A stretch of 64,000 bases of DNA, from contig NZ_CP065053.1 in NCBI RefSeq assembly GCF_015689335.1, forward strand, positions 7,130,001-7,194,000, read 5' to 3'. Below, piece after piece: positions 2,253 through 38,847 of the stretch. The notes beneath the pieces are model-generated. The model was given only the letters and a program-made list of their open reading frames with translations. It was not told the origin of the DNA and ran no database searches. Source of the DNA: Massilia antarctica. GTDB lineage: Bacteria; Pseudomonadota; Gammaproteobacteria; Burkholderiales; Burkholderiaceae_D. The stretch's first letter is position 1, and the number at the start of each line of letters is the position of its first letter. The translations under genes and the position numbers were made by a program.

Positions 2253-2629
2253 CTTGCTCACCTTTCTTCGCGCTTCGCGAGTTTGGCGGGTTAATCTAAC
2301 CTTCCGCGACACGGCCTGACCGGTTAGCGGATTGCACATCAAGTTGTGGGGAAGGACTTGTAAAGCTCGCAGCATTCTTACGACGTCGGAAGAATAGCAC
2401 GCGTATTGTAGCGTAACATTCCATCTTACGAAAAAAGTTGCCAATCATCTTTTAGTATTGGGTGATGCCAAAACCACGACTCAGCCGTGAAAAAATTGAC
2501 ACGGCACAGGTTTATGCTTCATTAACAGGAGAGTTTCTTGCGCCATCTCAAGGCGTAGATTTGGCCGTTCTGGGCTAAAACAAGCGATTGTTGCGTATTG
2601 TAAATCCCGGCCCAGTCCATTGACCGCGT
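2253..2629. other. Intergenic region between sucA and the iron operon
   Basis: About 380 bases separate the divergent sucA and PepSY-TM genes. The half near sucA is AT-richer than the coding sequence and should hold the sucA promoter. A TTGACA hexamer sits at 2496-2501 on the plus strand, but no good -10 element follows at 16-18 bases. I see no coding sequence or RNA gene in it. Confidence 0.5.
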
Positions 2630-2650
2630 AAATGATAATAGTTATCATTT
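2630..2650 (+). promoter_or_regulatory. Fur box (iron-responsive operator) of the PepSY/DUF2271/ApbE operon
   Basis: Two perfect 9-base inverted arms, AAATGATAA and TTATCATTT, are separated by the three bases TAG. This closely matches the classical Fur palindrome of GATAAT / ATTATC hexamers. It lies 28 bases before the first start codon of the operon, where Fe2+-Fur binding would block transcription, so the five downstream genes are predicted to be induced in iron starvation. Confidence 0.88.
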
Positions 2651-2678
2651 GCGTTTAGTTCGTTCACGGAAGCACCCG

Positions 2679-3317
2679 ATGTCCTCCCATGCCACGCTCC
2701 CCAGCGCCAGCCGCGCCGCCTGGCTCAAGAATTTGCACCGCTGGCACTGGATCAGCTCGGCGTTGTGCCTGATGGGCATGCTTTTATTCAGCATCACCGG
2801 CATCACGCTCAACCACGCGACCCAGATCGAAGCCAAGCCGACGGTCACCAAGCGCAAGGCCAGCCTGCCGGCGCCGCTGCGGCGCGACCTGGAACAGTTC
2901 GCCACCAAGCACGCCGACGCCCGCGCGCCGCTGCCGCCGCGCGTGGCCAGCTGGGCCGACCGCGAGTTCGGCCTGGACGTCGCGACCATTGACGCCGAAT
3001 GGACCGAGGAAGACGCTTACGTCGCCCTGCCCCGCCCCGGCGGCGACGCCTGGCTGCGCATCGGCGTCGACGGCGCCGCCGAATTCGAGAAGACCGGGCG
3101 CGGCATGGTTTCCTGGCTCAACGACCTGCACAAGGGCCGCAACGCGGGCCCCGTGTGGGGCTGGTTCATCGATATTTTTGCCATCGCCTGCGTGGTGTTT
3201 TCGCTCACCGGTTTCCTGATCATGAAGCTGCACGCGGCCAACCGCCCGTCCACCTGGCCGGTGATCGGTGCCGGCATCCTGCTGCCGCTCCTGCTCGCCC
3301 TCTTGTTTACCCACTAA
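2679..3317 (+). CDS. PepSY-associated transmembrane protein
   Basis: This is a 212-residue inner-membrane protein of the PepSY-TM type. Hydrophobic segments lie at about residues 24-45, 158-182 and 192-210, with a soluble loop of about 110 residues between the first and second. Histidines flank the helices (H20, H23, H46, H151, H185), an arrangement that in PepSY-TM reductases is thought to bind heme. In many genomes this module is fused to a flavodoxin/FAD reductase; here the reductase is the separate fifth gene of the operon. The ATG at 2679 follows a GGAAG site; a TTG 30 bases upstream is in frame but overlaps the Fur box. A role moving electrons across the membrane is inferred from the family and the neighbours. 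Confidence 0.8.
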   Translation: MSSHATLPSASRAAWLKNLHRWHWISSALCLMGMLLFSITGITLNHATQIEAKPTVTKRKASLPAPLRRDLEQFATKHADARAPLPPRVASWADREFGLDVATIDAEWTEEDAYVALPRPGGDAWLRIGVDGAAEFEKTGRGMVSWLNDLHKGRNAGPVWGWFIDIFAIACVVFSLTGFLIMKLHAANRPSTWPVIGAGILLPLLLALLFTH

Positions 3318-3328
3318 GTCCACTACCT

Positions 3329-3844
3329 ATGAAACTACAGCACACGCTTGCCCTAACCCTCCCCATGCTGAGCAGCTGGGCCGTCGGCGCCGACCTGGCC
3401 GTCAAGTTCGAGATCCCGCAACTGAACGTGGCTGAATACCACCGTCCTTATGTGGCGATGTGGCTGGAGCGCGCCGACCAGAGCGTGGCCGCCAACCTGT
3501 CGGTGCTGTACGACGTCAAGAAAAAGGATAACGGCGGCACCAAGTGGGTCAAGGACTTGCGCACCTGGTGGCGCAAGGCCGGGCGCGACGTGGAACTGCC
3601 ATTGGATGGCGTAAGCGGCGCCACCCGCGCCGCCGGCGAGCAGGCCATGAGCTTCGGCCCGGCCCGCACCGGCATCGACAAGCTGCCGGCCGGCGACTAC
3701 AAGCTGGTGATCGAAGCGGCGCGCGAATCGGGCGGACGCGAACTGGTACGCGTGCCCTTCACCTTGCCGCTCAAGGGCACGCAAACGGCCAGTGCGCGCG
3801 GCAAGGAAGAACTTGGCGCGGTTTCCCTCCAGATCACCCCTTGA
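3329..3844 (+). CDS. DUF2271 exported protein with predicted flavinylation motif
   Basis: This 171-residue protein has a signal peptide of about 21 residues ending near WAVGA, so it should be periplasmic. It belongs to the DUF2271 family, which occurs with ApbE and PepSY-TM genes. Residues 93-100 read DGVSGATR, matching the D-x-x-S/T-G-A-T/S motif on which ApbE attaches FMN through a phosphoester bond to the Thr (T99 here). I therefore predict a covalent flavin carrier that accepts electrons from the membrane partner. It starts 11 bases after the PepSY-TM gene and is followed after 11 bases by the DUF4198 gene, so all are co-transcribed. The flavinylation is inference from the motif and operon context. 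Confidence 0.82.
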   Translation: MKLQHTLALTLPMLSSWAVGADLAVKFEIPQLNVAEYHRPYVAMWLERADQSVAANLSVLYDVKKKDNGGTKWVKDLRTWWRKAGRDVELPLDGVSGATRAAGEQAMSFGPARTGIDKLPAGDYKLVIEAARESGGRELVRVPFTLPLKGTQTASARGKEELGAVSLQITP

Positions 3845-3855
3845 TTGAACCAGCC

Positions 3856-4689
3856 ATGAACAACACCACCATGAAGAAAACCCTGCTCGCGCTGGCCTTG
3901 GCGGCCGTCTCCCTGAGCGCCGCCGCGCACCGTGGCTGGCTGTACCCGCAGTCGACGATGGTTGAATCGAAGGAGCCATGGGTGACCATCGATGGCGCCA
4001 TTTCGGAAGGCTTGTTCGACGTCGACCACGTCGCCCTCAAGCTCGATGGCGCCACCGTCACCGATCCGGATGGCGTTGCTACGCCTGCGCCGGCCGGCTA
4101 CATGGGCAAGCAGCGCAGCACGTTCGATTTGAGGATGACCAAGAACGGCACTTACAAGATCAGCATCGTCAGCCGCAACGTGATGGCCAGCTACAAGGAC
4201 AAGACTGGCGAAACCAAGCGTTTCCGCGGCAGCGAGGAAGCCTACGCCAAGGAAGTGCCGGCCGACGCGGCGGAACTGAAAACCACCTACGCCCACCAGC
4301 GCCTGGAGACGTTCGTGAGCGCGAACAAGACCAGCGACGGTGCCTTCAAGCCGAGCGGCGTGGGACTGGAGATGATCCCGCTGACCAATCCGACCGACCT
4401 GCGCGCGGGCGAAACAGCCAGGTGGCGCTTCCAGCTCGATGGCAAGCCGCTGCCCAAATTCGCTTTCAGCCTGATTCCGGGCGGCGTGCGCTATCGCGGC
4501 GTGCTCGGAGAAGTGCGACTGGAAACCGATGCCAAGGGCGAGGCGGCGGTGACCTTGCCGGCCGCCGGCATGTACTGGCTCAACGCCGGCTTTCCGGCGG
4601 CCCAGGCGAAAGGCCCGGCCCCGGCCGACGCAGCGGCCGTCACGCGCCGCTACAGCTACGCCGCCACGCTCGAAGTGCTGCCAGAGTAA
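3856..4689 (+). CDS. DUF4198 domain-containing periplasmic protein
   Basis: The product has 277 residues with a clear signal peptide (basic MKK then a hydrophobic core ending in SAAAHRG, cleavage near residue 24). The mature protein begins with the HRGWLYPQST type of start seen in DUF4198 proteins, which resemble periplasmic metal-uptake accessory proteins with beta-sandwich folds. Its exact role is not known. Here it lies third in the Fur-controlled operon, its stop codon touching the apbE start at 4690, which suggests translational coupling. A ligand- or metal-binding partner of the flavoprotein DUF2271 is plausible but unproven. The start at 3856 was chosen over the internal ATG at 3871; either keeps the signal peptide. 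Confidence 0.75.
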   Translation: MNNTTMKKTLLALALAAVSLSAAAHRGWLYPQSTMVESKEPWVTIDGAISEGLFDVDHVALKLDGATVTDPDGVATPAPAGYMGKQRSTFDLRMTKNGTYKISIVSRNVMASYKDKTGETKRFRGSEEAYAKEVPADAAELKTTYAHQRLETFVSANKTSDGAFKPSGVGLEMIPLTNPTDLRAGETARWRFQLDGKPLPKFAFSLIPGGVRYRGVLGEVRLETDAKGEAAVTLPAAGMYWLNAGFPAAQAKGPAPADAAAVTRRYSYAATLEVLPE

Positions 4690-5700
4690 ATGGAACACCG
4701 CGTTCTCGTCCCCCTCGCCATCGCGCCGGCCCTGCCGCCGCGCGCAAGCACCTTGCACAAGCTGGGTGGCGGCACCATGGGCACCAGCTGGTCGGCGCGC
4801 GTGATGGCGCCGGGCGACGCCGGCCCGGCCTTGCTGGAGGACTTGCAGCGCCAGCTCGACCTGGTGGTGGCGCAAATGAGCCACTGGGAACGCGACTCGA
4901 ACCTGAGCCGCTTCAACAGTGCGCCGGCGGGCAACTGGCATCGCCTGCCCGATGAATTTTTCACGGTGCTCAGCTACGCGCTGGACGTGGCCGAGGCCAG
5001 CGGCGGCGCCTACGATCCTTGCGCCGGCGCGCTGGTCAACGCCTGGGGTTTCGGCGCGCGCCAGCGCTACAACGAAGCCAAATTTTACGCGCCCTTGCCG
5101 GCCGCCAGCGCGGCCATCGTGGCGCGCGCTGACCGCCAGCGCCTGCGCCTGGACCCAGGCAGCCGGCGCGCGCTACAACCGGGCGGCGTGCAGCTCGACC
5201 TGTCGTCGGTGGCCAAGGGCTACGCGGTCGACCTGCTGGCGCGCTGCCTGGAAGCGCAAGGCCTGCATCACTATCTGATCGAGATCGGCGGCGAACTGCG
5301 CGGCGCCGGCACCAAGGCCGACGGCCAGCCGTGGTGGGTCGCGCTCGAAGGCGTGCCTGATGCGGTCGATGGGGCAGCCCAGACCAGGGTGGCGCTGCAC
5401 GGGCTGGCAATTGCCACCTCGGGCGACTACCGGCGCTACTTCGAGCATGGCGGCCGGCGCGCCTCGCACACGCTCGACCCGCGCACCGGGGCGCCGATCC
5501 GCAACGACGTCGCCTCGGTCACCGTGCTGCATGCCGAATGCATGGCGGCCGACGCGCTCTCGACCGCGCTGTCGGTGCTCGGTCCCGTCGACGGTCTGGC
5601 CTTCGCCGAACGCCACCATCTGGCCGCGCGCTTCCTGCTGCGGCACGGCGGCGGCCTGCGCGAAGTGGTCTCCAGCGCTTACCAGGAACTGCTGCAATGA
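4690..5700 (+). CDS. apbE: FAD:protein FMN transferase
   Basis: This 336-residue protein is an ApbE-family flavin transferase, which uses FAD and Mg2+ to attach FMN covalently to Ser/Thr of an S-G-A-T motif. Family signatures are visible: GGTMGTSWSA (about residues 27-36), DLSSVAKGYAVD (170-181), SHTLDPRTGAP (259-269) and the metal-site segment AADALSTAL (287-295). The likely substrate is the DUF2271 protein two genes upstream. Unusually, no convincing signal peptide or lipobox precedes the catalytic domain, although ApbE proteins normally act outside the cytoplasm. The start codon directly follows the stop of the DUF4198 gene, and the end overlaps the reductase gene in an ATGA junction. Confidence 0.93.
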   Translation: MEHRVLVPLAIAPALPPRASTLHKLGGGTMGTSWSARVMAPGDAGPALLEDLQRQLDLVVAQMSHWERDSNLSRFNSAPAGNWHRLPDEFFTVLSYALDVAEASGGAYDPCAGALVNAWGFGARQRYNEAKFYAPLPAASAAIVARADRQRLRLDPGSRRALQPGGVQLDLSSVAKGYAVDLLARCLEAQGLHHYLIEIGGELRGAGTKADGQPWWVALEGVPDAVDGAAQTRVALHGLAIATSGDYRRYFEHGGRRASHTLDPRTGAPIRNDVASVTVLHAECMAADALSTALSVLGPVDGLAFAERHHLAARFLLRHGGGLREVVSSAYQELLQ

Positions 5701-7043
5701 CGATCAGTGTCGATCCGGTCCGCTGGGGCGGCGCCGCTGCCGCCGTGGCGGCCTACGCGGGCATGTGCCTGGCGCTGCTGCGCACGCGCCGAGGCTTGCG
5801 CCAGGATGGCGGCGCTGACCATGCCGACTGGCTGGTGGCCTACGCCAGCCAGACCGGCACCGGCGAAGCGCTGGCCGAACACACCGTGGCAACCCTGCGC
5901 ACGGGCGGCCTGTCGGCGCGCGCGCTCAGCGTCGAGCACCTCGATGACGCCACCCTGCGCGGCGCCGCGCGCATCCTGTTCATCGCCAGCACCTACGGCG
6001 AGGGCGACGCGCCCGACAGCGCGGCGCGCCTGGCGCGCCTGCTCGACCAGCCCGATCTTGCGCTCGGCCAGCTGCATTACGCGGTGCTGGCCTTGGGCGA
6101 CAGCAGCTACGCCAATTACTGCGGCTTCGGGCGCCGCCTCGATGCCGCCTTGAAGGCGCGCGGAGCACAGGCGCTGTTCGAGCGGGTGGAAGTGGACCGC
6201 GGGCGCGCCACCGCCATCGACGCCTGGCAGCATCACCTGAGCCACCTGGCCGGCACCAGCGACGCGCCCGACTGGAGCGCGCCAGCATACGGCCACTGGC
6301 GCATCGCCACGCGCCGCCTGATCAACCCGGGCAGCGCGGGCGCGCCCGTGTACCGCATCGACCTGGTGCCAGCAGCCGGCGCGCTGCCGGCTTGGGAAGC
6401 GGGCGACCTGGTGCAGGTGAGCGCGCCGGGCGAGCCGGATTATCCGCGCGAGTATTCGATCGCCTCGACCATGGGCGAAGGCTGCCTGTCGCTGCTGGTG
6501 CGATTGCACGTGCGCGACGACGGCACCGTCGGCATGGCGTCCGGCTGGCTGTGCCGCGAGGCGGGCGAAGGCGATGAAGTGCTGCTGCGGGTGCGCCAGC
6601 ACAGGCGCTTTCGGATCGGCGAAAACGCCGGGCGGCCGCTGATCTTGATCGGCAACGGTACCGGCATCGCGGGCTTGCGCGCGCACTTGAAAAGCCGCGC
6701 CGACGTTGGCGAGGCGCGCAACTGGCTGGTCTTCGGCGAGCGCAACGAAGCGCATGACCACTTCTGCGCGGGCGACATCGCGGCGTGGCGCCAGGCCGGC
6801 ATGCTCGACACGCTCAGCCTCGCCTTTTCGCGCGATGGCGGCAGCGCGCGCTACGTCCAGCACGCGCTCGATGCGCAGGCCGCGCAGCTGCGCGCCTGGG
6901 TCGACGCGGGCGCGGCGATCTATGTCTGCGGCAGCCTGCAAGGCATGGCCGGCGCCGTGCACGACACCCTGGCCAGGGTGCTCGGAAGCGATGCCCTGGC
7001 GCTGCTGGACGAGACTGGCCGCTACCGGCGCGACGTGTACTGA
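5697..7043 (+). CDS. Membrane-anchored diflavin reductase (flavodoxin plus FAD/NADPH domains)
   Basis: The product has 448 residues. An N-terminal hydrophobic segment (about 11-29) can anchor it in the inner membrane. A flavodoxin domain follows (about 45-185; AYASQTGTGEALAEH binds FMN phosphate, and FIASTYGEGDAPDSA is typical). Then comes a ferredoxin-reductase-like FAD domain (REYSIAS at 251-257) and an NAD(P)H domain (IGNGTGIAGLR at 318-328, YVCGSLQGM at 409-417). The order matches CysJ and cytochrome P450 reductase. It probably takes electrons from NADPH and feeds them through the PepSY-TM protein to the periplasmic flavoprotein. The start at 5697 overlaps the apbE stop (ATGA). Physiological acceptor unknown; sulfite reduction is unlikely given the Fur operon. 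Confidence 0.85.
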   Translation: MTISVDPVRWGGAAAAVAAYAGMCLALLRTRRGLRQDGGADHADWLVAYASQTGTGEALAEHTVATLRTGGLSARALSVEHLDDATLRGAARILFIASTYGEGDAPDSAARLARLLDQPDLALGQLHYAVLALGDSSYANYCGFGRRLDAALKARGAQALFERVEVDRGRATAIDAWQHHLSHLAGTSDAPDWSAPAYGHWRIATRRLINPGSAGAPVYRIDLVPAAGALPAWEAGDLVQVSAPGEPDYPREYSIASTMGEGCLSLLVRLHVRDDGTVGMASGWLCREAGEGDEVLLRVRQHRRFRIGENAGRPLILIGNGTGIAGLRAHLKSRADVGEARNWLVFGERNEAHDHFCAGDIAAWRQAGMLDTLSLAFSRDGGSARYVQHALDAQAAQLRAWVDAGAAIYVCGSLQGMAGAVHDTLARVLGSDALALLDETGRYRRDVY

Positions 7044-7118
7044 CGAGGCCATTTTTCACGCCGGAAAATATGCGTAACGCATGGACCGGCGATTTTAACA
7101 GATGCGAATGGAAATAGT

Positions 7119-7137
7119 ATTGATAACGATTATCATT
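7119..7137 (+). promoter_or_regulatory. Fur box upstream of fiu
   Basis: The core TGATAACGATTATCA at 7121-7135 is a perfect dyad (TGATAA / TTATCA around CGA), and flanking bases extend the match to the Fur consensus. It sits about 110 bases before the fiu start codon and after the end of the reductase gene. The receptor therefore probably has its own iron-regulated promoter in addition to possible read-through. Confidence 0.87.
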
Positions 7138-7248
7138 TACATGCTTTTACGTTTCTCCTACAATGACTAAGTTGTTGGCAATTTATGCCACGCCGGCGCG
7201 CGTTTCCAGGTCCGCCAGCGCCCACCCACCGTCAAAGAAGAGAAGCAG

Positions 7249-9537
7249 ATGGCACCGATCAAAAGCCGCAAGCACGCGCAATCCCGTTTTAATCAACACA
7301 TGAGCGTCGCGCTTGCCGCGCTGCTGGTGCCGGTGGCCGCCCAGGCCGCCGACGCACCCCAGGCCCGCACCATGCCGGAAGTCCAGGTCGTGAGCAAAAC
7401 CGGCGAAGAAACCGTCAACGACTTCAAGGCCGAACGCGCCGCGTCGCCGAAGTACACCGAACTGCTGATCAACACCGCGCAAACGATCACCGTCATCAAG
7501 AAAGAACTGATCCAGCAGCAAGGCGCGGTCACCCTGACCGAAGCGCTGCGCAATACCCCCGGCGTGGGCACCTTTTTCCTCGGCGAAAACGGCAGCACGA
7601 CCACCGGCGACAGCATCTACATGCGCGGCTTCGATTCGTCGACCAGCATTTTTGTCGATGGCGTGCGCGACATCGGCTCGATTTCGCGCGATGTCTTCAA
7701 CGTCGAGCAGCTCGACGTGCTCAAGGGCCCGGCCGGCACCGACACCGGGCACTCCTCGCCGACCGGTTCGGTCAACATGGTGACCAAGCAAGCCGTGATG
7801 GAGTCCGGCACGACCGGCTCGGTGATTGCCGGCAGCGGCAAGCAAAAGCGCGCCACGGTCGATTACGCCCAGGTGCTGAGCGCCGAAAAAGGCATCGCCC
7901 TGCGCCTGAACGCGCTGGCCCAGGATAGCGGCGTTCCCGGACGCGATGTCGTCAAGGACAAACGCTGGGCGCTGGCACCCTCGCTCGCCTTCGGCCTGAA
8001 CGGCCCGACCCGCATCTACCTGAACTACCTGCACGTCAACCAGGACAACGTGCCCAACGGCGGCGTACCGACCGTTGGCTTGCCGGGCTACACCAGCCCG
8101 GACGCGCGCGCCTTCCTGACCAGCGCGCCGCGCGTCGATCCGCGCAACTTCTACGGTTCCGTGACCGATTACGACAACGTCAAGGCCGACATGTTCACGG
8201 TCAAGGTCGAACATGACTTTGCACCGAACGTGAAGCTGCAAAACACCACGCGCTACGGCAAGACGTCGCAGGATTACCTGCTGACCGCGTTCATGGGCAA
8301 TAGCGCCAACCTGAAAACGCCGACCCCCAACGACCCGGCCAGCTGGACCATCACGCGCGGCAACCGCACGGTCAAGGACCAGAGCAACGCGATCCTCACC
8401 AACCAGAGCGTGGCGACGGTGGGCATGGACCTGGGCGGCATGAAGCACACCTTCGTGGGCGGACTGGAACTGACCAGCGAAGAGCAGAGCACCTATGGCT
8501 ACCTTGGCGCCGGCACGATGGCGGTCGATTCGCTGTACGCGCCGAATCCATCCTCGCCGATCACCGGCCTGAACCTGGTGCGCAACGGCGTGAGTACCAA
8601 TTCCAAGGTCGATACCCAGAGCCTGTACCTGTTCGACACCATCAAGCTGGGCGAGAAGTGGATCTTCAACCTTGGCGCCCGCATGGACCACTTCAACGTG
8701 AACTACAACGCGACGGCCCTGTCGACGGCCGCCGCCAATCCGGCGCTGCCGGTGGGCACGCTGGTGCCGACCACGCTCAAGCTGAGCGACACGGTAGGCA
8801 ATGGCAAGATATCGGCGCTGTACAAGCCGACCGCCGACAGCAGCGTCTACGCCCTGCTGGCGACATCGAAGCAGCCGCCGGGAACCAACCTGGCCTTGTC
8901 GACCTCGGCCAACAGCGCATCGAATCCGAAATACACCCCGCAGCAATCGACCACCACCGAAATCGGCACCAAGTGGGATTTCCTCAAGCAAAAGCTGTCG
9001 CTCACGGCGGCGGTGTACCGCACCACGGTCAAGAACGAGCTGGAGCAGGATCCGGTGGACCTGGTGTACTACCAGACCGGCCGCAAGCAGGTCAAAGGCA
9101 TCGAGCTTGGTGTGACGGGGGAAGTGGCGCGCAACTGGCTGGTGAGCGCCGGCTATGCCCGCATGGATACGGAAGTGAGCAATGGCAAGGTGGTGACCGC
9201 CAGCGGGATCAATAACCTGAACTACACGCCGAAAGATGCGTTCACCTCGTGGACTTCGTACACCCTGCCGATGGGCCTGAAAGTGGGCGGCGGCGCGCGC
9301 TATGTCGGCAAGCTGCTGCGCGGCGCCGATGGCGCGGTGGGCACGCCGGCGTTTGCCGATGCCTACTGGGTGGTCGATGCGATGGCGTCGTACACCGTGA
9401 GCAAGAACCTGGACGTGCAGCTGAACGTGTACAACCTGGCGGACAAGGAGTACATTGCGCAGATTAACAAGAGCGGTTACCGCTACACGCCGGGCGCGCC
9501 ACGCTCGGCCAGCCTGATGGCCAACTTCCGCTTCTAA
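7249..9537 (+). CDS. fiu: TonB-dependent catecholate siderophore receptor (Fiu type)
   Basis: This 762-residue outer-membrane receptor imports ferric catecholate siderophores using TonB energy. A signal peptide of about 34 residues ends at AAQAADA. The plug domain contains segments nearly identical in pattern to Escherichia coli Fiu: LRNTPGVGTFFLGENG, STTTGDSIYMRGFD and VFNVEQLDVLKGPAGTD. The protein ends in a C-terminal Phe (ANFRF), the normal signature for beta-barrel assembly. A GAGAAG ribosome site precedes the ATG. The piuC gene follows after 94 bases, the same pairing as fiu-ybiX in E. coli and piuA-piuC in pseudomonads. Regulation by Fur is predicted from the site at 7119-7137. Confidence 0.93.
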   Translation: MAPIKSRKHAQSRFNQHMSVALAALLVPVAAQAADAPQARTMPEVQVVSKTGEETVNDFKAERAASPKYTELLINTAQTITVIKKELIQQQGAVTLTEALRNTPGVGTFFLGENGSTTTGDSIYMRGFDSSTSIFVDGVRDIGSISRDVFNVEQLDVLKGPAGTDTGHSSPTGSVNMVTKQAVMESGTTGSVIAGSGKQKRATVDYAQVLSAEKGIALRLNALAQDSGVPGRDVVKDKRWALAPSLAFGLNGPTRIYLNYLHVNQDNVPNGGVPTVGLPGYTSPDARAFLTSAPRVDPRNFYGSVTDYDNVKADMFTVKVEHDFAPNVKLQNTTRYGKTSQDYLLTAFMGNSANLKTPTPNDPASWTITRGNRTVKDQSNAILTNQSVATVGMDLGGMKHTFVGGLELTSEEQSTYGYLGAGTMAVDSLYAPNPSSPITGLNLVRNGVSTNSKVDTQSLYLFDTIKLGEKWIFNLGARMDHFNVNYNATALSTAAANPALPVGTLVPTTLKLSDTVGNGKISALYKPTADSSVYALLATSKQPPGTNLALSTSANSASNPKYTPQQSTTTEIGTKWDFLKQKLSLTAAVYRTTVKNELEQDPVDLVYYQTGRKQVKGIELGVTGEVARNWLVSAGYARMDTEVSNGKVVTASGINNLNYTPKDAFTSWTSYTLPMGLKVGGGARYVGKLLRGADGAVGTPAFADAYWVVDAMASYTVSKNLDVQLNVYNLADKEYIAQINKSGYRYTPGAPRSASLMANFRF

Positions 9538-9631: not shown

Positions 9632-10312
9632 ATGATGCTCCATATTCCCCACGTGCTCAGTCGCGACCAGGTCGCCGCCATGCGCCACGCGCTCGACAGC
9701 GCCGACTGGACCGACGGCCGCGCCACGGTCGGCGCGCAAGGCGCGCAGGTCAAGCACAACCAGCAACTGCCCGACAACGGTCCCGTGGCCGCTGAACTGG
9801 GCCGCATCATCCTGGCCGCCCTGGCCGCCAATCCCCTCTATTTCGCCGCCGCCCTGCCCCTGCGCACGGTGCCGCCGCTGTTCAACCGCTACACCGGCGG
9901 CGAACACTACGGCGCTCACGTGGACGGCGCCGTGCGCAACGTGGCCGGCAGTGCCTTGCCGCTGCGCACCGACCTGTCGTGCACCCTGTTCCTGTGCGAG
10001 CCGGACGACTACGATGGCGGCGAACTGGTCGTCAACGATACTTACGGCGTGCATGAAGTCAAGCTGCCGGCTGGCGACATGATTGTCTACCCCTCGTCCA
10101 GCGTGCACAAGGTCGAGCCGGTCACGCGCGGCAGCCGGGTTTGTTCCTTTTTCTGGGTGCAAAGCATGGTGCGCGACGATGGCCGCCGCGCCATGCTGCT
10201 CGAACTCGACCAGACTATCCAGCGTTTGCGCGCCCTCCTTGGCGATACCGAGGAAACGGTCGGCCTGACCGGGCATTATCACAACCTGCTGCGGATGTGG
10301 TCGGAGATCTGA
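9632..10312 (+). CDS. piuC: Fe(II)/2-oxoglutarate-dependent PKHD-type hydroxylase
   Basis: This 226-residue cytoplasmic protein is the PiuC/YbiX family dioxygenase, almost the same length as E. coli YbiX (225). The iron-binding facial triad is visible as H96-x-D98 ([10 protein letters not shown]) and H159 (SSVHKVEPV), with the 2-oxoglutarate-binding Arg at R169. The family is nearly always beside a catecholate-siderophore receptor and is iron-repressed; its substrate is not firmly established, though a role in processing imported siderophore or siderophore-drug conjugates has been suggested. Start chosen at the first of two adjacent ATGs (9632, 9635), which gives the family N-terminus [10 protein letters not shown]; an upstream TTG would add 12 residues not seen in the family. 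Confidence 0.92.
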
Positions 10313-10324: not shown

Positions 10325-10348
10325 CATCTAGATAATTTATTCTAGATG
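10325..10348 (+). promoter_or_regulatory. Dyad operator at the start of the BlaI-type regulator gene
   Basis: Perfect 8-base inverted arms CATCTAGA (10325-10332) and TCTAGATG (10341-10348) flank the AT-rich spacer TAATTTAT. The site lies immediately upstream of, and overlaps one possible ATG of, the regulator gene, as expected for autoregulation by a dimeric winged-helix repressor. It also lies within 40 bases of the piuC stop. Confidence 0.65.
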
Positions 10349-10372
10349 CATTCCCACCAGTATCCGCCCCCC

Positions 10373-10756
10373 ATGTCCGAGCCGTCCGCCCCGCCCAAGC
10401 CCACCGCATCGGAACTGGAGATGCTGCGCCTGCTGTGGCAACTCGGTCCGGCCAGCGCCAAACAGGTGCACCAGGCAGCCATCACCAGCCGTCCCGACAT
10501 GGCGTACGCAACCGTGCTGCGCCTGCTCCAGCTGATGCACACCAAAGGCTTGCTCACGCGCGATGAAAGCGCCCGCGCGCATGTGTACGCGCCGGCCCAG
10601 CCGCAGGATTCGCTGCAGACCAGCCTGATCAAGGAATTGATTCACAAGGCGTTTTCGGGCTCGGGCAAGGAACTGGTGCTGGCGGCGTTGCGCGGGCATG
10701 TGAGCGCGCGCGAACGGGCGGAGATCCAGGCGATTTTGGATCAGGAGAAAAAGTGA
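10373..10756 (+). CDS. BlaI/MecI/CopY-family transcriptional repressor (orphan)
   Basis: The product (127 residues from this start) has the winged-helix pattern of the Penicillinase_R family: KPTASELEMLRLLWQLGPAS, then a recognition helix region ending AYATVLRLLQLMHTKGLL, and a C-terminal dimerisation helix. Family members repress beta-lactamase, copper or quinone-stress genes and are often inactivated by a neighbouring M56 (BlaR1-like) membrane peptidase. No such peptidase is encoded nearby, so the inducer is unknown. An in-frame ATG at 10346 would add nine residues but lies inside the operator and, like 10373, lacks a clear ribosome site; the start is therefore uncertain. Possible targets are itself and the adjacent genes. 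Confidence 0.8.
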   Translation: MSEPSAPPKPTASELEMLRLLWQLGPASAKQVHQAAITSRPDMAYATVLRLLQLMHTKGLLTRDESARAHVYAPAQPQDSLQTSLIKELIHKAFSGSGKELVLAALRGHVSARERAEIQAILDQEKK

Positions 10757-33375: not shown

Positions 33376-33900
33376 ATGCAACCGATACCCTATGCTCCTG
33401 CCACTGCGGCAACGCCCGCGCCGGATGACGCCCCGGCCGCACAACTGCTGCACGACGTCATCGTCCAGACAGCGCAGCTGCCGGCACGCGCCGACGGCAT
33501 CGCCGTGGGCCGCTTCGACGCCATCGGCGACGACGGCGTTGCCCTGGTCAGCATTCCCGCCTTCGGCTTGAGCCGCATCGCCGCACGCACACTCAGTGCG
33601 CTCGACCCCGCGCAGATCGGCCAATCCGTCGCGCTGGGATTCGAATCGGGCGACCCGCGGCGTCCGCTCATCCTCGGTTTCATGCTGGCGCCGCAAGCGC
33701 CGCCGGCGCAGGCCAGCACCCATGTCGTGCTCGACGGCGAACGTGTCGTGCTCAGCGCCGAGCACGAAATTGAATTGCGTTGTGGTGAAGCCGCGCTCGT
33801 CCTAAGTGCCGATGGCCGCATCCAGCTGCGCGGCACCTACATCACCAGCCAGGCCAGCGCGACCCAGCGCATCCTGGGCGGTTCGGTTCACGTCAACTAG
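33376..33900 (+). CDS. DUF6484 domain-containing T6SS-associated protein
   Basis: This 174-residue protein has the DUF6484 pattern. An N-terminal variable segment leads to IAVGRFDAIGDDGVALVSIP, an SH3/OB-like barrel with SVALGFESGDPRRPLILGFM, and a C-terminal beta-strand end reading GRIQLRGTYITSQASATQRI. DUF6484 proteins are found next to VgrG and PAAR-type genes; their role in the spike complex is not established. It is the first gene of a 10-gene island, with the next start eight bases after its stop. Confidence 0.82.
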   Translation: MQPIPYAPATAATPAPDDAPAAQLLHDVIVQTAQLPARADGIAVGRFDAIGDDGVALVSIPAFGLSRIAARTLSALDPAQIGQSVALGFESGDPRRPLILGFMLAPQAPPAQASTHVVLDGERVVLSAEHEIELRCGEAALVLSADGRIQLRGTYITSQASATQRILGGSVHVN

Positions 33901-33907
33901 GGCCGGC

Positions 33908-35029
33908 ATGGACATTCAAGTCGCCTCGAAGCATTTGATTGCACAGGTCGCCACGTCGCTCGACGTCGATGGGCGCGAGCATCTTGTGATCGTCATCAAG
34001 GGAAGCTGGCGTATCCCCGAGGAAGGCCAACGCCCGCGCCCGATCGCACCATCGCCGCTGTCCGTGAGCGATGCCTTCGTCGGCGAACCGGGCCTGAGCG
34101 CCCTGCTCTACGGCGACGATTTCGCGCGCTATAAACCGCGCTGCGACGTCCTGTTCGATGCATATGCGCATGCGCCCGACGGCCAGGAAGTGCAAGAGAT
34201 CACGGTGGCATGCCAGGTTGGCCCAATGAAAAAAGGCATCAAGGTGGTCGGCCCGCGCCAGTGGCGCAAACTGATGGGCATCTACACGCTCACCAAACCC
34301 GAACCTTTTACGCGCATGCCTTTGCACTACGGTCATGCCTTCGGCGGCGCCCGCACCTACCAGCAAGGCTGGGGCGAGAACCGGCAGACCATGACCGAAA
34401 CCATGCTCGCCAATCCGGCCGGAATCGGATGGGGCGGCAAACGCACGGGCGGCGACCTCGATGGAGAAAGCGCACCGAATCTGCAGGCGCTCGGCGAAAC
34501 AATCAGCAGCCCGACCGGCAATTACACGCCGGTCGCCTTGTCGGCCGTCGGCCGCCACTGGACGCCGCGCAGCGACCATGCCGGCACCTACGACAAGCAT
34601 TGGGAGGAAAACGTCTGCCCCTTCCTGCCGGAAGATTTTGACGAGCAACACAACCAGTGTGCAGCGGCCGATCAACAGATTGCCTACCCTGGCGGCGGTG
34701 AAACCGTCATCTTGCGCAACATGATGGCCGGACGGCCGGACGTGCGCTTCACCTTGCCGCGCCTTGACGACCTGCAGGTGCGGATTCTGCGCACCGATTA
34801 CAGCACCGAGATCCTGGCGCCGGCGGTCGACACCCTGTTCTTCGAAACCGAAAAAGGCAGTTTCTCGGCGATATGGCGCACCAGCGTGCCGATCCGGCGC
34901 CGCATCCAGGAATTCCTGGTGCTGGCGGTCGGTCCGGTCGACCCGGCGTGGTGGCAGCGCCAGCGCGCGGGCGCCGGCGGCTGCCACGGATGCGGCCACG
35001 GGATGGATGACAACGAAGGGTCGGCATGA
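33908..35029 (+). CDS. DUF2169 family T6SS effector adaptor candidate
   Basis: This 373-residue protein belongs to DUF2169, a family linked to type VI effector loading and regularly beside PAAR-like (DUF4150) genes. Typical segments are DGREHLVIVIKGSWRIPEEG at the start and MPLHYGHAFGGARTYQQG and AVGRHWTPRSDHAGTYDKHW in the middle. The C-terminus has CHGCGHGMDD, a C-x-x-C-x-H cluster that could hold a metal. It overlaps the next gene by four bases (ATGA), indicating coupling. An adaptor role is inferred from the family and position. Confidence 0.85.
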   Translation: MDIQVASKHLIAQVATSLDVDGREHLVIVIKGSWRIPEEGQRPRPIAPSPLSVSDAFVGEPGLSALLYGDDFARYKPRCDVLFDAYAHAPDGQEVQEITVACQVGPMKKGIKVVGPRQWRKLMGIYTLTKPEPFTRMPLHYGHAFGGARTYQQGWGENRQTMTETMLANPAGIGWGGKRTGGDLDGESAPNLQALGETISSPTGNYTPVALSAVGRHWTPRSDHAGTYDKHWEENVCPFLPEDFDEQHNQCAAADQQIAYPGGGETVILRNMMAGRPDVRFTLPRLDDLQVRILRTDYSTEILAPAVDTLFFETEKGSFSAIWRTSVPIRRRIQEFLVLAVGPVDPAWWQRQRAGAGGCHGCGHGMDDNEGSA

Positions 35030-36141
35030 ATTCCTTAACGAAAAACAGTTTCTGGAACAAGTTTGGCGCCGGGCCCGCCGACACAGCGTCGACGCCGGCC
35101 CTGGCCATCCGCGCGGCCGGCCTGTGTTGTGCGGTCGGGTACAACCTGGATGCGGCCGTGTGCGCCATGCGCGCCAACATGGACCATTTCCAGCGCAGCG
35201 ACTTCAAGACAGGGCGGCACGAGCGAGTGCTGGTGGCGCGCCTGGACGACGACAATGTATGGGGCCAGGGACGGCTGGCGCGCTGGATTGCCCTAGCCAT
35301 TGCGGATTGTCTGAGCACGGTCGGGCAGTGCGACGTCAGCAAGGTGCCGCTGGTCTGGCTGGCCCCCGAACCGGAACGCAGCGGCAGCGACAGCGATTGG
35401 TATGCCAGCGTATTCAGCCAGGCCGTCGACCAGCTCGGCCTGCAGTTTCACCCGCGTTCCGGCGTCATGGCGTCAGGCCGCGCCGGGCTGGCGAATGCAC
35501 TCAAACAGGCCGCTGCGCTGCTGGCGTTGCCCGATTGCGAACAGGTGCTCCTGGTCGGCGCCGATACCTACCTGAACGCCACCACCATCAACGCCTATCT
35601 CCAGGCTGGCCGCCTGCAAGTGCGGGGCAACAGCGACGGCTTCATTCCCGGCGAAGCCGCTGCCGCCGTTCTCTTGCAGAAAGCGGCGGTGGCCGCCGCC
35701 GGCGAACCGGCACCGGCCCGGCACGATGGCGAGGTGCGCATCCTCGGCTTTGGCACCGGTGACGAGCCTGGCCGCGTCGATGGCAGCGTGCCGAGCAAAT
35801 CGCAGGGATTGACCGCAGCGATCCGCGCGGCGCTCACGATGAGCCGCCTTGCATTCGAGGACCTCGCATTCCGGGTCAGCGATCAGAACGGCGAGTCGTT
35901 TTTTGCGCGCGAAGCATCCAATGCCATGACCCGCCTGGCGCCGGCCGGCAGCAACCTGCCGGGCCTGGTGACGGTGGCCGACTGCCTGGGCGAAGTCGGG
36001 GCGGCGACCGGACCGGCCATGCTGGCCTATTTATTCAAGACCATGCGCCATCCGGCAGGGCCGGGTGCCGGCGGATTACTGCACTTAGCCAACGACAACG
36101 GGCTGCGCAGCGCAGTGATATTACAACGAAGCATAGCCTAG
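35026..36141 (+). CDS. Ketosynthase-like (thiolase-fold) protein lacking the catalytic cysteine
   Basis: The 371-residue product resembles beta-ketoacyl-ACP synthases. AGLCCAVGYNLDAAV matches the N-terminal start, GLANALKQAAALL the helix after the active site, and DGFIPGEAAAAVLL (204-217) the D-G-F-x-x-G-E-G-A motif. At the position of the active-site Cys the sequence is RSGVMASGRAG (145-154) with no Cys, and the later HGTGT motif is not seen. It is therefore likely non-catalytic. Thiolase-like proteins of this kind are found in T6SS-related islands with DUF2169 and DUF4150; a structural or chaperone role is a guess. It overlaps DUF2169 by ATGA and is followed by the PAAR-like gene. Confidence 0.72.
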   Translation: MNSLTKNSFWNKFGAGPADTASTPALAIRAAGLCCAVGYNLDAAVCAMRANMDHFQRSDFKTGRHERVLVARLDDDNVWGQGRLARWIALAIADCLSTVGQCDVSKVPLVWLAPEPERSGSDSDWYASVFSQAVDQLGLQFHPRSGVMASGRAGLANALKQAAALLALPDCEQVLLVGADTYLNATTINAYLQAGRLQVRGNSDGFIPGEAAAAVLLQKAAVAAAGEPAPARHDGEVRILGFGTGDEPGRVDGSVPSKSQGLTAAIRAALTMSRLAFEDLAFRVSDQNGESFFAREASNAMTRLAPAGSNLPGLVTVADCLGEVGAATGPAMLAYLFKTMRHPAGPGAGGLLHLANDNGLRSAVILQRSIA

Positions 36142-36154
36142 GAGATTGCAAGCG

Positions 36155-36541
36155 ATGGACACCCACGTGTATGCCAATGACAATCAAATTTCATCCAAAG
36201 CGGCCGATGGAAAATCGTTTTCCTTCCCCGATCCCTGCTGGAGCCCGCCGCCTCCCGGCGTGGGACCGGTGGTCATTCCCTACCCCAATACCGCGTTTGC
36301 CAAGCATCTCCAGAATGGAAGCTCAACGGTATTTATTTGCGGTACCGAAGTGGCGCTGAAGAATGTGTCGTATTTTTCGACCAGCACCGGCGACGAGCCG
36401 GCGACCCTGCTGTTTAAAAAGGGCGTGAAAAGCGGCGTCATCAAAGGCAAGGCGTATTTCACCCAATGGTCATCCAACGTGAAATTCGAAGGATTGAACG
36501 TGTGCAGGCATAACGACACCATGACGCACAACCACGGATGA
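36155..36541 (+). CDS. DUF4150 PAAR-like spike-tip protein
   Basis: This 128-residue protein belongs to DUF4150, the PAAR-like group that caps the VgrG spike of type VI systems and recruits effectors. It begins MDTHVYANDNQISSKAADGK, contains the PDPCWSPPPPGVGPVVIPYP segment typical of the family, and ends CRHNDTMTHNHG, where Cys and His can bind the tip zinc. The ATG at 36155 follows GGAG at 36141-36144; a TTG at 36146 would add three residues. The effector gene starts four bases after its stop. Confidence 0.88.
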   Translation: MDTHVYANDNQISSKAADGKSFSFPDPCWSPPPPGVGPVVIPYPNTAFAKHLQNGSSTVFICGTEVALKNVSYFSTSTGDEPATLLFKKGVKSGVIKGKAYFTQWSSNVKFEGLNVCRHNDTMTHNHG

Positions 36542-36545
36542 GTAA

Positions 36546-37721
36546 ATGACAACGCAACCCACCAAGGCAAAAAAGCGGGCGGCCACCGCCACAGCCGGCG
36601 GCCCCAAGCCGAAAAAGGCCCGCGTCGCCAAACCCAAGGCCGTCAAGCCCAAGGTGCCCAGGGCGAAAAAGCCGCGTCGTCCGGTTCAGAAAGCCGGCAA
36701 TACCGCCGATTACCACTACTTTCATAACAAGACCGATCATGGCGACTGCAAGGACGACTACGACCGCATTATAGAAAAATGCGCCGACACACCAGCCAAC
36801 GATCAAGCCGCCGCCGCCTCGAGACAAAATTCCAAGCTGGGCACAAACGCCGCGCCTTCGGTGAAAAGCCATGAAACGGATGTCAAGAAAGCGCTCGTGG
36901 ATATTGACGCCCAGGCGAAAATAGACACCGGCTTCAAAAGCACCAAAAAGAATGCGTGGATGAAGAACTGCACCGGCTTGTGGCAGAAGCCGGGCGGCGA
37001 ACGCGGTCCGGACAATGCCAAGGTGTCGAACACCCAAAAATTCAAGGATCAGCTGACGACCACCTTCGCGAACTCGCCGGATCTGCTCACGCCGGGTCCG
37101 ATGGAAGACATCATGGCCGCGACGATGGCCTCGGCCGCCCATGCGGACCCCTGTATCAAGGCGAGAAAATGCCTCTTGATCCCGTACATGGATGCCGATA
37201 AGACCGCCGCCGGCAATGGATGCTGCCCCGGCCAGACCGGGCATCACCTGCTCCCGAGCGCCATGTTCGACCAATATGCGCCGGAGCTCAACAGCGACAA
37301 GAAAACCTATAAAAGGAAGATGAAAAACGATGGCCGGCGGCCTTGCTGGAAAGGCTATGAGCATAATGCGGCACTGACGATTTGCCTGGAAGGCACGACC
37401 AATCGCTCGGCCAACGGCAGCCACGGGCACGCGCACAAAGAGACGGGCGACATTCTGGACCGCTTTCGAAAATCGGCCGACATGCCCTATACTGACGCGC
37501 GCAACGAGGTGGCGGACATGTTCGCCACCATGTTCGGATGCGACTCCAAATGCCTGTCCGAGCAGCTCGACGATTCCTTAAAGAACAAGCACAGCTGCGG
37601 TGACCTCGACAAGGCAAAAGTTTCCCCGCACTCTGGCGAGGCGAACGGCGGACCGGACGCGCCCACCGGCCCGGTCCCGGCCCCCACTGCCGCGCCGCTC
37701 ACACCGACCAATGTAATTTAG
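36546..37721 (+). CDS. Putative T6SS nuclease effector (GHH / HNH-endonuclease VII fold)
   Basis: The protein has 391 residues. Residues 7-48 are a Lys/Ala/Pro-rich, strongly basic disordered tail. The C-terminal half carries a nuclease signature: GQTGHHLLPSAMF (229-241, the GHH core H233-H234), GYEHNAALTIC (270-280) with an Asn typical of HNH folds, and NRSANGSHGHAH (286-297) with further histidines. Cys pairs (C208/C209 region, C226-C227, C267, C280) may hold structural metal. This pattern is close to the Tox-GHH2 domain of known antibacterial T6SS DNases such as Tse7. Its place directly after a PAAR-like gene supports delivery by the spike. DNase activity is inferred. Confidence 0.8.
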   Translation: MTTQPTKAKKRAATATAGGPKPKKARVAKPKAVKPKVPRAKKPRRPVQKAGNTADYHYFHNKTDHGDCKDDYDRIIEKCADTPANDQAAAASRQNSKLGTNAAPSVKSHETDVKKALVDIDAQAKIDTGFKSTKKNAWMKNCTGLWQKPGGERGPDNAKVSNTQKFKDQLTTTFANSPDLLTPGPMEDIMAATMASAAHADPCIKARKCLLIPYMDADKTAAGNGCCPGQTGHHLLPSAMFDQYAPELNSDKKTYKRKMKNDGRRPCWKGYEHNAALTICLEGTTNRSANGSHGHAHKETGDILDRFRKSADMPYTDARNEVADMFATMFGCDSKCLSEQLDDSLKNKHSCGDLDKAKVSPHSGEANGGPDAPTGPVPAPTAAPLTPTNVI

Positions 37722-37730
37722 GAGATTTCG

Positions 37731-38759
37731 ATGGACGAGGTTTTTAACAAGGAAACGTGGACAAAATTTGTCAGCGGATACACCATCTTCGATTGCGCCA
37801 TCATCCGGGAAAAAGGATTCGGCTTCATCCTGGTGGAAGAGCGCGACAGCCGCGATCCCCTGCCGAAAACACGCTTTATCAACATGGCGATCGACCAGCC
37901 GATCGAGAACCGCTTTGCCGTCTCGGAGAGCGAGGACTTTACTTTCACCTCGATCGCGGCCAGCATGACCCCGCCGGAATACGTGTCCGTCGATACGCGC
38001 AGCCAGGTGTATTCGGCCAGCGGCCAGCGCAAGGGCCAGGAAACGGCCATCGATGACTTGATCGACATGAGTACGGTTGGCGCACGCGTGGGCATCGTGA
38101 CGAAAGTGGTTCGCGCCGCCGGGCAAATCTACGCCATCGGCGACTACCGAAAAATATACCGGCGCCTCGGCGTCGATCAGTGGATCGAACTGGGCAATGA
38201 AGGCAAGGGCGTTCCCCTGCCGGCCGACGTGGCGACCTCGGGCGCCCTGCCCAGTACCTTCGGTTTCAGCGACATGAGCGCCTTCGACACCAACGACATG
38301 TATGCGGTGGGCGGCAAGGGCGATGTCTGGCGTTTCGACGGCAGCAAGTGGCACAACTGCCCGATTCCAACCAATGCAAAACTGAAAACGGTATGCTGCG
38401 CCGGCGACGGCGTGGTCTACCTTACCGAAGCAAACGGCAGCGTGTGGGCGGGCCGCACCGATAACTGGAAGCTGATCGCGGAAGCGGATATCGCGCCCGG
38501 ATACCAGCCGGTGGATGCCGCCTGGTTCAACAATCGCCTGTATCTGGGCGGGCAAGAGGGTATCTGGACGATCGATGTGAAGAAGAAGCTGGTCGTTCCG
38601 CTTCAGGAAGTCGAGCCGGATGCGCCGAACCCGACCAATGGCGGCCGGCTCGATATCAGCCCCGACGGCAAATTCCTGCTGACAGCCGGCCCGCACGGCG
38701 CCTGTCTCCACGATGGCAGCGGATGGCGCCGGCTTTTCAGCGCATTCGATTATCTTTGA
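37731..38759 (+). CDS. Beta-propeller-like protein, candidate immunity protein
   Basis: The product has 342 residues, no signal peptide and no membrane helix. From about residue 125 it contains repeats of the type Y-x-x-G-x-x-G-x-x-W/Y: IYAIGDYRKIYRR, MYAVGGKGDVWRFDG, YLTEANGSVWAGRT and LYLGGQEGIWTID, suggesting a small beta-propeller. It starts nine bases after the nuclease effector with its own GGAG ribosome site. A cytoplasmic protein encoded directly after a nuclease toxin is most simply its immunity protein. I do not recognise a named family. Confidence 0.6.
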   Translation: MDEVFNKETWTKFVSGYTIFDCAIIREKGFGFILVEERDSRDPLPKTRFINMAIDQPIENRFAVSESEDFTFTSIAASMTPPEYVSVDTRSQVYSASGQRKGQETAIDDLIDMSTVGARVGIVTKVVRAAGQIYAIGDYRKIYRRLGVDQWIELGNEGKGVPLPADVATSGALPSTFGFSDMSAFDTNDMYAVGGKGDVWRFDGSKWHNCPIPTNAKLKTVCCAGDGVVYLTEANGSVWAGRTDNWKLIAEADIAPGYQPVDAAWFNNRLYLGGQEGIWTIDVKKKLVVPLQEVEPDAPNPTNGGRLDISPDGKFLLTAGPHGACLHDGSGWRRLFSAFDYL

Positions 38760-38847
38760 GCGGCAACGGGGGGGGAACACGCTGCATCGCGGCCCGTGGC
38801 CGCGCCCGCGCGGATGACCTCCTCCCCAGCTAACCACCCGGTATCCC

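Follow-up and report, generated by a model that had tools for sequence, protein, structure and literature searches.

In the soil bacterium Massilia antarctica, five adjacent genes within the stretch of DNA analyzed here (the window, 64,000 nucleotides) raise the question of whether a single operon could carry electrons from the cytoplasm to ferric iron in the periplasm, and of where in the cell its flavin carrier would be completed.

Organization of the operon and its probable control by Fur

The five-gene set (positions 2679–7043, forward strand) encodes, in order, a PepSY_TM protein, DUF2271, DUF4198, ApbE, and a CysJ-like diflavin reductase (Table 1). An earlier note on this DNA had described these genes as nearly touching or overlapping and as preceded by a Fur box; the intergenic gaps of 11, 11, 0, and −4 nt, the Pfam domains, and a zero-mismatch box all bear out this description. 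The best NCBIfam relative of the reductase is CysJ, at a score below the CysJ cut-off, and its best PDB relative is likewise CysJ (6efv).

Table 1. Features of the operon and of the neighboring receptor genes (window coordinates).
Feature	Position	Strand	Basis
Sigma-70-like promoter TTGACC-17-TATCAT	2620–2648	+	10/12 match; overlapped by Fur box 2630–2650
Fur box of operon	2630–2650	+	0 mismatches to palindrome; best site in genome
PepSY_TM_like_2 membrane protein, 212 aa	2679–3317	+	PF16357, E 1e-73; PF03929, 1.4e-11 (Pfam)
DUF2271, secreted flavin carrier	3329–3844	+	PF10029, 1.1e-47 (Pfam); N-terminal signal-like sequence
Flavinylation motif D93-G-V-S-G-A-T99 of DUF2271	3605–3625	+	T99 in 74/75
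DUF4198, secreted, probable periplasmic metal binder	3856–4689	+	PF10670, 3.4e-48 (Pfam)
ApbE FAD:protein FMN transferase, no recognizable signal peptide, N-terminal RVLVP motif	4690–5700	+	PF02424, 1.2e-78
Short CysJ-like diflavin reductase, N-terminal hydrophobic anchor	5697–7043	+	Flavodoxin_1, 4.1e-27; NAD_binding_1, 2.8e-8
Second Fur box, ahead of receptor gene	7118–7138	.	2 mismatches
Fiu-class catecholate TonB-dependent receptor	7249–9537	+	NF007349, 1007.6 bits vs cut-off 686
PiuC/YbiX/CciO-type Fe(II)/2OG dioxygenase	9632–10312	+	NF003975

The Fur-box palindrome used for scanning is AAATGATAATNNTTATCATTT, and its perfect match ahead of the operon is the best in the whole 7.43-Mb genome. 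Seven genomic sites lie within three mismatches of this pattern, versus none for the reversed control pattern. Six of them adjoin iron genes (the PepSY operon, the Fiu gene, feoAB/bfd-tonB, a DhbC-like isochorismate synthase gene, and two TonB-receptor-plug genes), and inspection by eye found no obvious iron gene near the seventh. Across 71 loci, Fur-like boxes (at least 15/19) occur upstream of the PepSY gene in 19. With 20 shuffles per region as control, this score was reached in 3 of the 71 regions in one run and by 0 of 1420 shuffles in another; the best matches of 12–13/19 (27 regions) and 10–11/19 (17 regions) are no better than shuffles. Binding of Fur to the promoter of the Caulobacter crescentus orthologue has been shown by EMSA (PMC3751524), and limiting iron or losing fur raises expression of that operon 12- to 51-fold. 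The predicted box, by analogy with this orthologue, supports Fur control of the Massilia operon, as the earlier note proposed. The catecholate receptor and PiuC that it placed behind the five genes are both present, but their own Fur box and the 205-nt gap before them suggest that they are transcribed separately and are not the tail of the five-gene unit.

The operon is a member of a described class

The five-gene order recurs in 43 of 75 loci taken from family, class, and phylum draws (the draw set, whose loci are not independent) and in 65 of 80 loci representing the best 80 of 503 relatives (the relatives set), which rules out an arrangement peculiar to this strain and answers the search for the same gene order that had been suggested. 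Among 95 large loci, 20 lack a strong DUF2271 by profile and were handled apart from the 75; 16 of these have a long reductase, 13 of which carry the flavinylation motif by motif expression.

The novelty first attributed to the five-part set was overstated. Caulobacter CC3059-3063 (CCNA_03155-03159) matches it gene for gene and in order, is repressed by Fur, and has a Fur box over its promoter, a comparison that rests on published annotation and not on sequence. More broadly, Meheust et al. (2021, eLife; PMC8238504) described 3220 PepSY-like clusters, with DUF2271 in 2833 and a secreted DUF4198 in 1500, and proposed for them an iron role and Fur control. As in that class, the Massilia PF16357/PF03929 protein is clustered with ApbE, DUF2271, and a secreted DUF4198, and the operon contains what was used there for recognition: a clustered PepSY protein, at least one target gene with a signal peptide, and an [S/T]GA[S/T] site. 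The operon is thus a member of a widespread, already described PepSY-like flavinylation class. One difference is that the account in PMC8238504 counts 1077 genes whose PepSY protein itself carries NAD-binding domains, whereas in Massilia the diflavin reductase forms an anchored subunit of its own. The literature consulted, in part, also includes PMC11334425, PMC7190382, PMC12424826, PMC13038864, PMC6028853, and PMC12537917.

A candidate electron path across the membrane

The gene set, motifs, conservation, fusions, and missing signal peptide that we describe are read from sequence. The predicted structure of the PepSY_TM protein (mean pLDDT 91.0) has three long helices that we read as transmembrane (residues 9–45, 157–186, and 192–211) and a periplasmic domain at about residues 55–140. 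Four candidate heme ligands are conserved, His23 (71/71), His46 (64/71), His151 (71/71), and His185 (57/71); the model places them at the ends of helices or close by. Their counts agree with the FoxB-type feature of two conserved His pairs in the transmembrane core, the pairs here being putative. A Foldseek search with the model gave no match at E ≤ 0.001, FoxB was not among the 50 matches listed, and PDB searches with the single sequence and with a profile returned nothing useful. FoxB, HiuB, and VciB resemble the Massilia protein in belonging to the PepSY family and in the periplasmic iron reduction proposed for it, and FoxB and HiuB also in their paired heme histidines; they differ in that the available accounts of them describe no flavinylated carrier, whereas in Massilia the PepSY protein has three helices and DUF2271 and the reductase are proteins of their own.

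In a sister architecture, PepSY_TM is fused to a diflavin reductase (flavodoxin plus FNR; confirmed by Pfam in all four of the long proteins scanned), which supports an NADPH-to-heme route. We infer NADPH as the electron donor from the kinship of the reductase with CysJ. Together, the conserved histidines and these natural fusions support the putative cytoplasm-to-periplasm electron path of the earlier note.

We consider it likely that these genes form an operon of the known PepSY-like class that serves as a ferric reductase under iron starvation, in which electrons would pass from NADPH through hemes and DUF2271-FMN to Fe(III). Low iron would cause Fur to release the operon, and the membrane-anchored diflavin reductase would then transfer electrons from NADPH via FAD and FMN to the cytoplasmic heme of the three-helix PepSY_TM protein. 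The second heme would deliver them across the membrane to FMN on Thr99 of periplasmic DUF2271, and DUF2271-FMN would reduce Fe(III) imported by TonB receptors, here the Fiu-class catecholate receptor. DUF4198, by way of its N-terminal His, probably binds the released metal and passes it towards FeoB, and ApbE would load DUF2271 with FMN, a step that most likely takes place in the cytoplasm, ahead of Sec export. We found no paper that reconstitutes the five-part set in full.

DUF2271 is the motif-bearing protein

DUF2271 carries a flavinylation motif (Table 1), as expected of the flavinylatable carrier it had been taken for; the site at Thr99 reads SGAT and fits [S/T]GA[S/T]. The motif D-x(2,3)-[ST]GA[ST] is found in 113 of 155 DUF2271 proteins, and many of the others have close variants such as SGPT and SSAT. 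Flavinylation of a DUF2271 protein has been shown biochemically for A. ursilacus (PMC8238504). The E. coli genome used as a control encodes an ApbE but no DUF2271. Modification by ApbE of the diflavin reductase or another operon protein was rejected, as the motif is absent from all four others; by motif expression, it occurs in 0/150 PepSY, 0/151 DUF4198, 0/121 ApbE, and 0/131 reductase sequences. Tat export of folded, flavinylated DUF2271 was likewise set aside: an N-terminal 'RR' occurs in 4 of 75 sequences, none Tat-like by eye.

ApbE without a signal peptide

A signal peptide was recognized in only 2 of 118 operon ApbEs (L117 and L269), whereas DUF2271 is secreted. The Massilia enzyme has no recognizable lipoprotein or secretion signal, and position 4690 is the first start available in its frame. 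It scores 264.8 bits against PF02424 and 201 against NF007774, below the equivalog cut-off of 498, as do the lipoprotein and fusion-type ApbEs tested. Signals, including those of DUF2271, were judged from a hydrophobicity rule, not SignalP, together with visual inspection. This rule is crude, with a cut-off (1.6) chosen after the values had been seen; at 1.0, 1.3, 1.5, and 1.6, it passes 25, 10, 6, and 2 of the 118 ApbEs, and 137, 135, 116, and 99 of 146 DUF2271 proteins. The four ApbEs that pass at 1.5 but not at 1.6 (L080, L211, L215, and L243) are not signal-like by eye, and five of seven that had seemed signal-like by a first crude rule proved on sight to have proline-rich RVLIP-type or other unlikely N-termini. 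Three ApbEs from the single-ApbE genomes described below (L133, L137, and L142) have no usual start codon before the conserved core, and their in-frame upstream sequence holds no hydrophobic signal.

The distribution of ApbEs among genomes bears on the same point. Of 72 genomes, 38 encode no ApbE besides that of the operon (36 of these enzymes are in the set of 118; L145 and L148 were judged separately), and none of the 38 encodes an FMN_bind protein. Conversely, 21 strong loci have no operon apbE: one stops at a contig end (L067) and two encode ApbE–DUF2271 fusions (L149 and L152). For the other 18, ApbEs were drawn from 15 genomes (16 proteins), leaving aside G607, G720, G595, and further copies in G692 and G700; all 15 have FMN_bind proteins and lipoprotein ApbEs. 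Because the operon ApbE is signal-less while DUF2271 is secreted, and given these two patterns of distribution, DUF2271 is probably flavinylated before Sec export. On balance, we lean towards a fuller version, in which a signal-less ApbE clade flavinylates the DUF2271 precursor in the FAD-supplied cytoplasm and Sec exports the flavin-bearing chain; no FAD exporter or periplasmic ApbE would be needed, and apbE would be dispensable only where a periplasmic FMN_bind system already exists.

It is possible, but rather unlikely, that ApbE instead reaches the periplasm by an unrecognized route, or that another ApbE flavinylates DUF2271 there, as in canonical systems. Canonical ApbEs are periplasmic lipoproteins, and a signal-cut ApbE failed to complement in one study, as reviewed in PMC12052999. 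The Massilia genome also encodes four ApbEs, one of them a lipoprotein in a nos cluster, and ApbE–DUF2271 fusion proteins do carry a signal. Against a periplasmic enzyme stand the single-ApbE genomes, with their lack of FMN_bind substrates, and the fusion-type architecture, where a signal is likewise missing from all 15 ApbE N-termini seen. Observations that count against cytoplasmic flavinylation are the signal-bearing fusions, L117 and L269, and the A. ursilacus assay, in which a 'signal peptide-truncated' cognate ApbE was used (PMC8238504), a wording that takes this ApbE to have a signal. It was not among the 120 of 7993 kin listed.

A Klebsiella cytoplasmic ApbE similarly has no signal peptide, but it modifies a soluble fumarate reductase (PMC12052999), whereas the only motif-bearing protein of the Massilia operon is secreted. 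The available text of PMC8238504 does not mention a missing ApbE signal peptide, and our literature search found no statement of DUF2271 flavinylation before Sec export. What is new here is that the flavin-attaching ApbE seems to act inside the cell, before export of the carrier.

DUF4198 and the substrate of the relay

The predicted mature N-terminus of DUF4198 is His25 (codon 3928–3930), and a mature N-terminal His is kept in 74 of 74 sequences. The fold and this His are shared with known, distant DUF4198 metal binders (IsDUF4198, 9gcb; Zcp, 9mhj-9mhn), and the model matches metal-binding structures, among them those of Zcp with Cu, Zn, and Co; DUF4198 is a probable periplasmic metal binder. 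Matched by residue number, the Ni ligand His18 of IsDUF4198 corresponds to Trp in 61 of 74 mature sequences; Asp22 (70/74) and His34 (60/74) are conserved. The metals known to be bound by relatives are Ni, Cu, Zn, and Co, and iron binding was not found in the literature.

These kinships bear on an alternative that we regard as improbable, namely that the relay handles another metal (Cu or Ni) or a periplasmic oxidant, with iron control reflecting general metal homeostasis. IsDUF4198 binds Ni with a Kd of 18 nM, Zcp was solved with three other metals, and the PepSY_TM protein CrpH has been tied to copper. Against it stand the strong induction of the Caulobacter operon noted above and the siderophore receptors and PiuC that often neighbor the operon.

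The TonB-receptor link that the earlier note asked after holds in part. Within the fetched locus, a Fiu-class receptor is present in 33 of 65 draw-set and 27 of 68 relatives-set loci with full flanks, and absent from about half. PiuC lies in 26 of the 65; it is present in 53 of 66 genomes, 7 of which hold more than one copy. A ferric-siderophore (catecholate) substrate is thus only suggested, by neighborhood. A competing possibility, to which we give somewhat less than even weight, is a general periplasmic Fe(III) reductase serving FeoB for any iron source, with the catecholate receptor and PiuC merely co-regulated neighbors. In this direction point the 22 of 65 draw-set and 34 of 68 relatives-set full-flank loci with no profile-recognized TonB receptor, and the Fur box of feoAB in the Massilia genome. 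In addition, the Caulobacter operon is far in locus numbering from the Fiu-like cciT-cciO (CCNA_00028-27), whereas the Massilia receptor pair adjoins, and insertions in the Caulobacter operon lower fitness in complex medium containing EDTA (PMC12004947). The opposing evidence is that Fiu–PiuC pairs adjoin the operon at many loci, in either order and orientation, far above expectation for one copy per 4–5 Mb.

Implications

The operon offers a gene-by-gene candidate path for periplasmic iron release in many Proteobacteria, and joins the fields of flavinylation, PepSY reductases, and N-terminal-histidine metalloproteins. The pattern of ApbE signals makes testable whether Sec can export a covalent flavoprotein already made in the cell. 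In that case, these operons would be a common exception to the usual picture, in which a secreted ApbE completes extracytosolic flavoproteins with exported FAD, and counts that require a signal peptide on ApbE would overlook the signal-less enzymes.

Operon composition and conservation

The five genes lie at the positions claimed for them in an earlier note, with intergenic gaps of 11, 11, 0 and -4 nt, and of the two genes that follow in that note, a catecholate receptor and PiuC, the first encodes a Fiu-class receptor and the second a PiuC-type protein. The reductase is CysJ-like (TIGR01931, 224 bits, below the equivalog cut-off; best solved relative 6efv), is shorter than CysJ at 448 aa, and has a hydrophobic anchor at its N-terminus. 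In the SRD...YVQ and RxYS-type stretches, which in CysJ contact NADPH and FAD, residues S378, R379, Y386, V387, Q388, R251, Y253, and S254 are each kept in 52 to 54 of 55 relatives. A BlaI-type regulator stands after Fiu and PiuC in 4/75 draw loci (window counted) and in 2/80 named loci. Elsewhere in the window, the presence of DUF2169 and VgrG-type proteins points to a type VI secretion region.

Draws from the family, class, and phylum supplied 94 large loci, 95 with the window included. A strong DUF2271 is present in 75 of the 95; these 75 contain PepSY (71), DUF4198 (74), ApbE (54), the reductase (55), a Fiu-class receptor (35), and PiuC (27). The search for the gene order across genomes that had been proposed recovered PepSY>DUF2271>DUF4198>ApbE>reductase in 43/75 draw loci and in 65 of the best 80 named loci of 503 relatives, which range over Massilia, Duganella, Cupriavidus, Herbaspirillum, Xanthomonas, and Lysobacter, Massilia species being closest. 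Such retention of order indicates that the five-gene arrangement is stable as a unit. The distribution of DUF2271 is uneven, with scores above the family cut-off in 29/97 family genomes and 65/398 phylum-draw genomes. The receptors near the operon vary: in loci with full flanks, a Fiu-class receptor occurs in 33/65 draw and 27/68 named loci, PiuC in 26/65 and 20/68, and any TonB receptor in 43/65 and 34/68. Because PiuC is usually single-copy (present in 53/66 genomes, with more than one copy in 7 of the 53), linkage of this kind over 20 kb greatly exceeds what chance would give, although it is not universal.

The novelty ascribed to the five-part set is overstated, as the operon is a further member of a class already described (PMC8238504; CC3059-3063 in PMC3751524). 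Separately, the sequence library gives the Zcp chains of PDB 9mhi-9mho (a DUF4198 relative) the molecule name phosphoribosylglycinamide formyltransferase, which is probably a mislabelling.

Probable Fur control

Across the 7.43 Mb genome, the palindrome pattern is matched without any mismatch only by the predicted Fur box ahead of the operon. At up to three mismatches the pattern occurs at only 7 places in the genome (see table), and a reversed control pattern at none. Because one Fur-like box adjoins a DhbC-like isochorismate synthase gene, the strain may itself make a catecholate siderophore. Across loci, 19/71 upstream regions match at least 15/19 Fur-consensus positions; in shuffle controls (20 per region), 3/71 regions reached this level in the first set and 0/1420 shuffles in the second. 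Seventeen of the 71 regions score only 10-11/19, and the E. coli-type consensus therefore does not fit all lineages. According to PMC3751524, limiting iron or losing fur raises the orthologous Caulobacter operon, CC3059-3063, by 12- to 51-fold, and EMSA shows Fur bound to the promoter of this operon. Its EDTA fitness is covered in PMC12004947, and Alteromonas DUF2271 and DUF4198 genes are iron-responsive (PMC7190382).

Coordinates of features in the window, the M. antarctica genome (G000, contig C1), and fetched loci
Feature	Location	Remark
Fur-pattern place, five-gene operon	window 2630-2650	
Fur-pattern place, Fiu gene		
Fur-pattern place, feoAB facing bfd and tonB		
Fur-pattern place, DhbC-like isochorismate synthase	G000:C1:6628113-6628133 (L180)	box directly upstream
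Fur-pattern places, two genes with TonB-receptor plugs		
Fur-pattern place, one without clear iron gene		
BlaI/penicillinase-repressor-type regulator	window 10346-10756	directly after PiuC
DUF2169 and VgrG-type (Phage_GPD, Gp5_trimer_C) proteins	window 33806-44732	
FMN_bind frame (189 aa) and ApbE	G000:C1:6200690-6201734 (L168)	
Sister-architecture loci	L071-L076, L153-L164 (e.g. L153:9320-12986)	full in 16/18; L073, L161 only DUF2271

Proposed electron path through PepSY

Four PepSY histidines, H23 (71/71), H46 (64/71), H151 (71/71), and H185 (57/71), would be suited to binding two haems. The structural model (mean pLDDT 91.0) predicts long helices at 9-45, 157-186, and 192-211 and places all four at or near helix ends; H20 (47/71) and H212 (65/71) are also kept, so that more than one pairing of ligands is possible.

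Of the 20 loci set aside from the strong-DUF2271 group, 16 have a sister architecture that lacks DUF4198 and consists of a short, secreted DUF2271 (13/16 with the motif DGx[ST]GAS), a fusion protein, and a signal-less ApbE. The fusion protein (726-839 aa) joins PepSY_TM, flavodoxin, and NAD-binding domains in 4/4 scanned, and this PepSY_TM-flavodoxin-FNR chain provides good evidence that the separate reductase would feed the separate PepSY protein in the M. antarctica operon. Loci L149-L152 encode a signal-bearing ApbE (about 490 aa) with DUF2271 joined at its C-terminus, so that enzyme and substrate would be exported as one chain; a motif expression found no DxxSGAS-type site in the L149-L151 fusions.

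An ApbE without a signal peptide

No usual start codon lies further upstream in the frame of the window's ApbE, which begins right behind the stop codon of DUF4198. Its N-terminus, MEHRVLVPLAIAPALPP, resembles those of relatives such as MRRVLLPQHIS, which, judged by sequence, cannot be signal peptides. Under a rule requiring a hydrophobic core of 12 residues with mean hydropathy of at least 1.6, a cut-off chosen after the values were seen, only 2/118 operon ApbEs pass (lipoprotein-like L117, and L269), compared with 145/149 DUF4198 proteins, 99/146 DUF2271 proteins, and 15/16 stand-alone ApbEs. Among the best 120 of 7993 homologues of the Andreprevotia ApbE, none passes and 114 carry an RVL[IV]P-type motif; by eye, 15/15 printed fusion-type ApbEs are without a signal. 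In a 76-sequence ApbE tree, the operon type is a single group (99/91) whose neighbour is the fusion type (100/100); the clade that unites both (91/81) lies apart from lipoprotein ApbEs. The two operon ApbEs with a signal diverge close to the base of the operon group. At another M. antarctica locus (L168), an FMN_bind frame beside an ApbE without an obvious signal peptide is a possible second cytoplasmic flavinylation pair.

Place of flavinylation

The operon ApbE is the sole ApbE in 38/72 genomes searched, and none of these 38 has an FMN_bind protein. In contrast, where the operon has no apbE (15 genomes covered out of 18), FMN_bind proteins occur in all 15, and the 16 ApbEs retrieved from these genomes start with a hydrophobic signal that runs up to a cysteine (14 by lipobox expression, 2 by eye). 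This genomic contrast is clean. Flavinylation before export would be physically possible, because a motif of seven residues is enough for ApbE (PMC12052999) and SecYEG, whose lumen can reach about 2.4 nm, can let rigid groups through (PMC6028853). The cytoplasmic ApbE of Klebsiella differs in that its target is a soluble fumarate reductase (PMC12052999, in part).

In M. antarctica itself, DUF2271 could possibly be flavinylated by a periplasmic route instead, as the genome encodes 4 ApbEs, among them a lipoprotein in a nos cluster, and two FMN_bind proteins. The main conflict with cytoplasmic modification is that PMC8238504, in its available text, names a signal-peptide-truncated A. ursilacus ApbE. 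No such signal is present in either of the two Chitinibacteraceae ApbEs covered (L248 and L249), which come from kin of A. ursilacus. The article passages searched contained no statement of DUF2271 flavinylation before export, and the signal-less ApbE with its two-way genome pattern appears to have gone unremarked so far. Most simply, the operon would supply a cytoplasmic ApbE of its own, and DUF2271 would be modified before Sec export.
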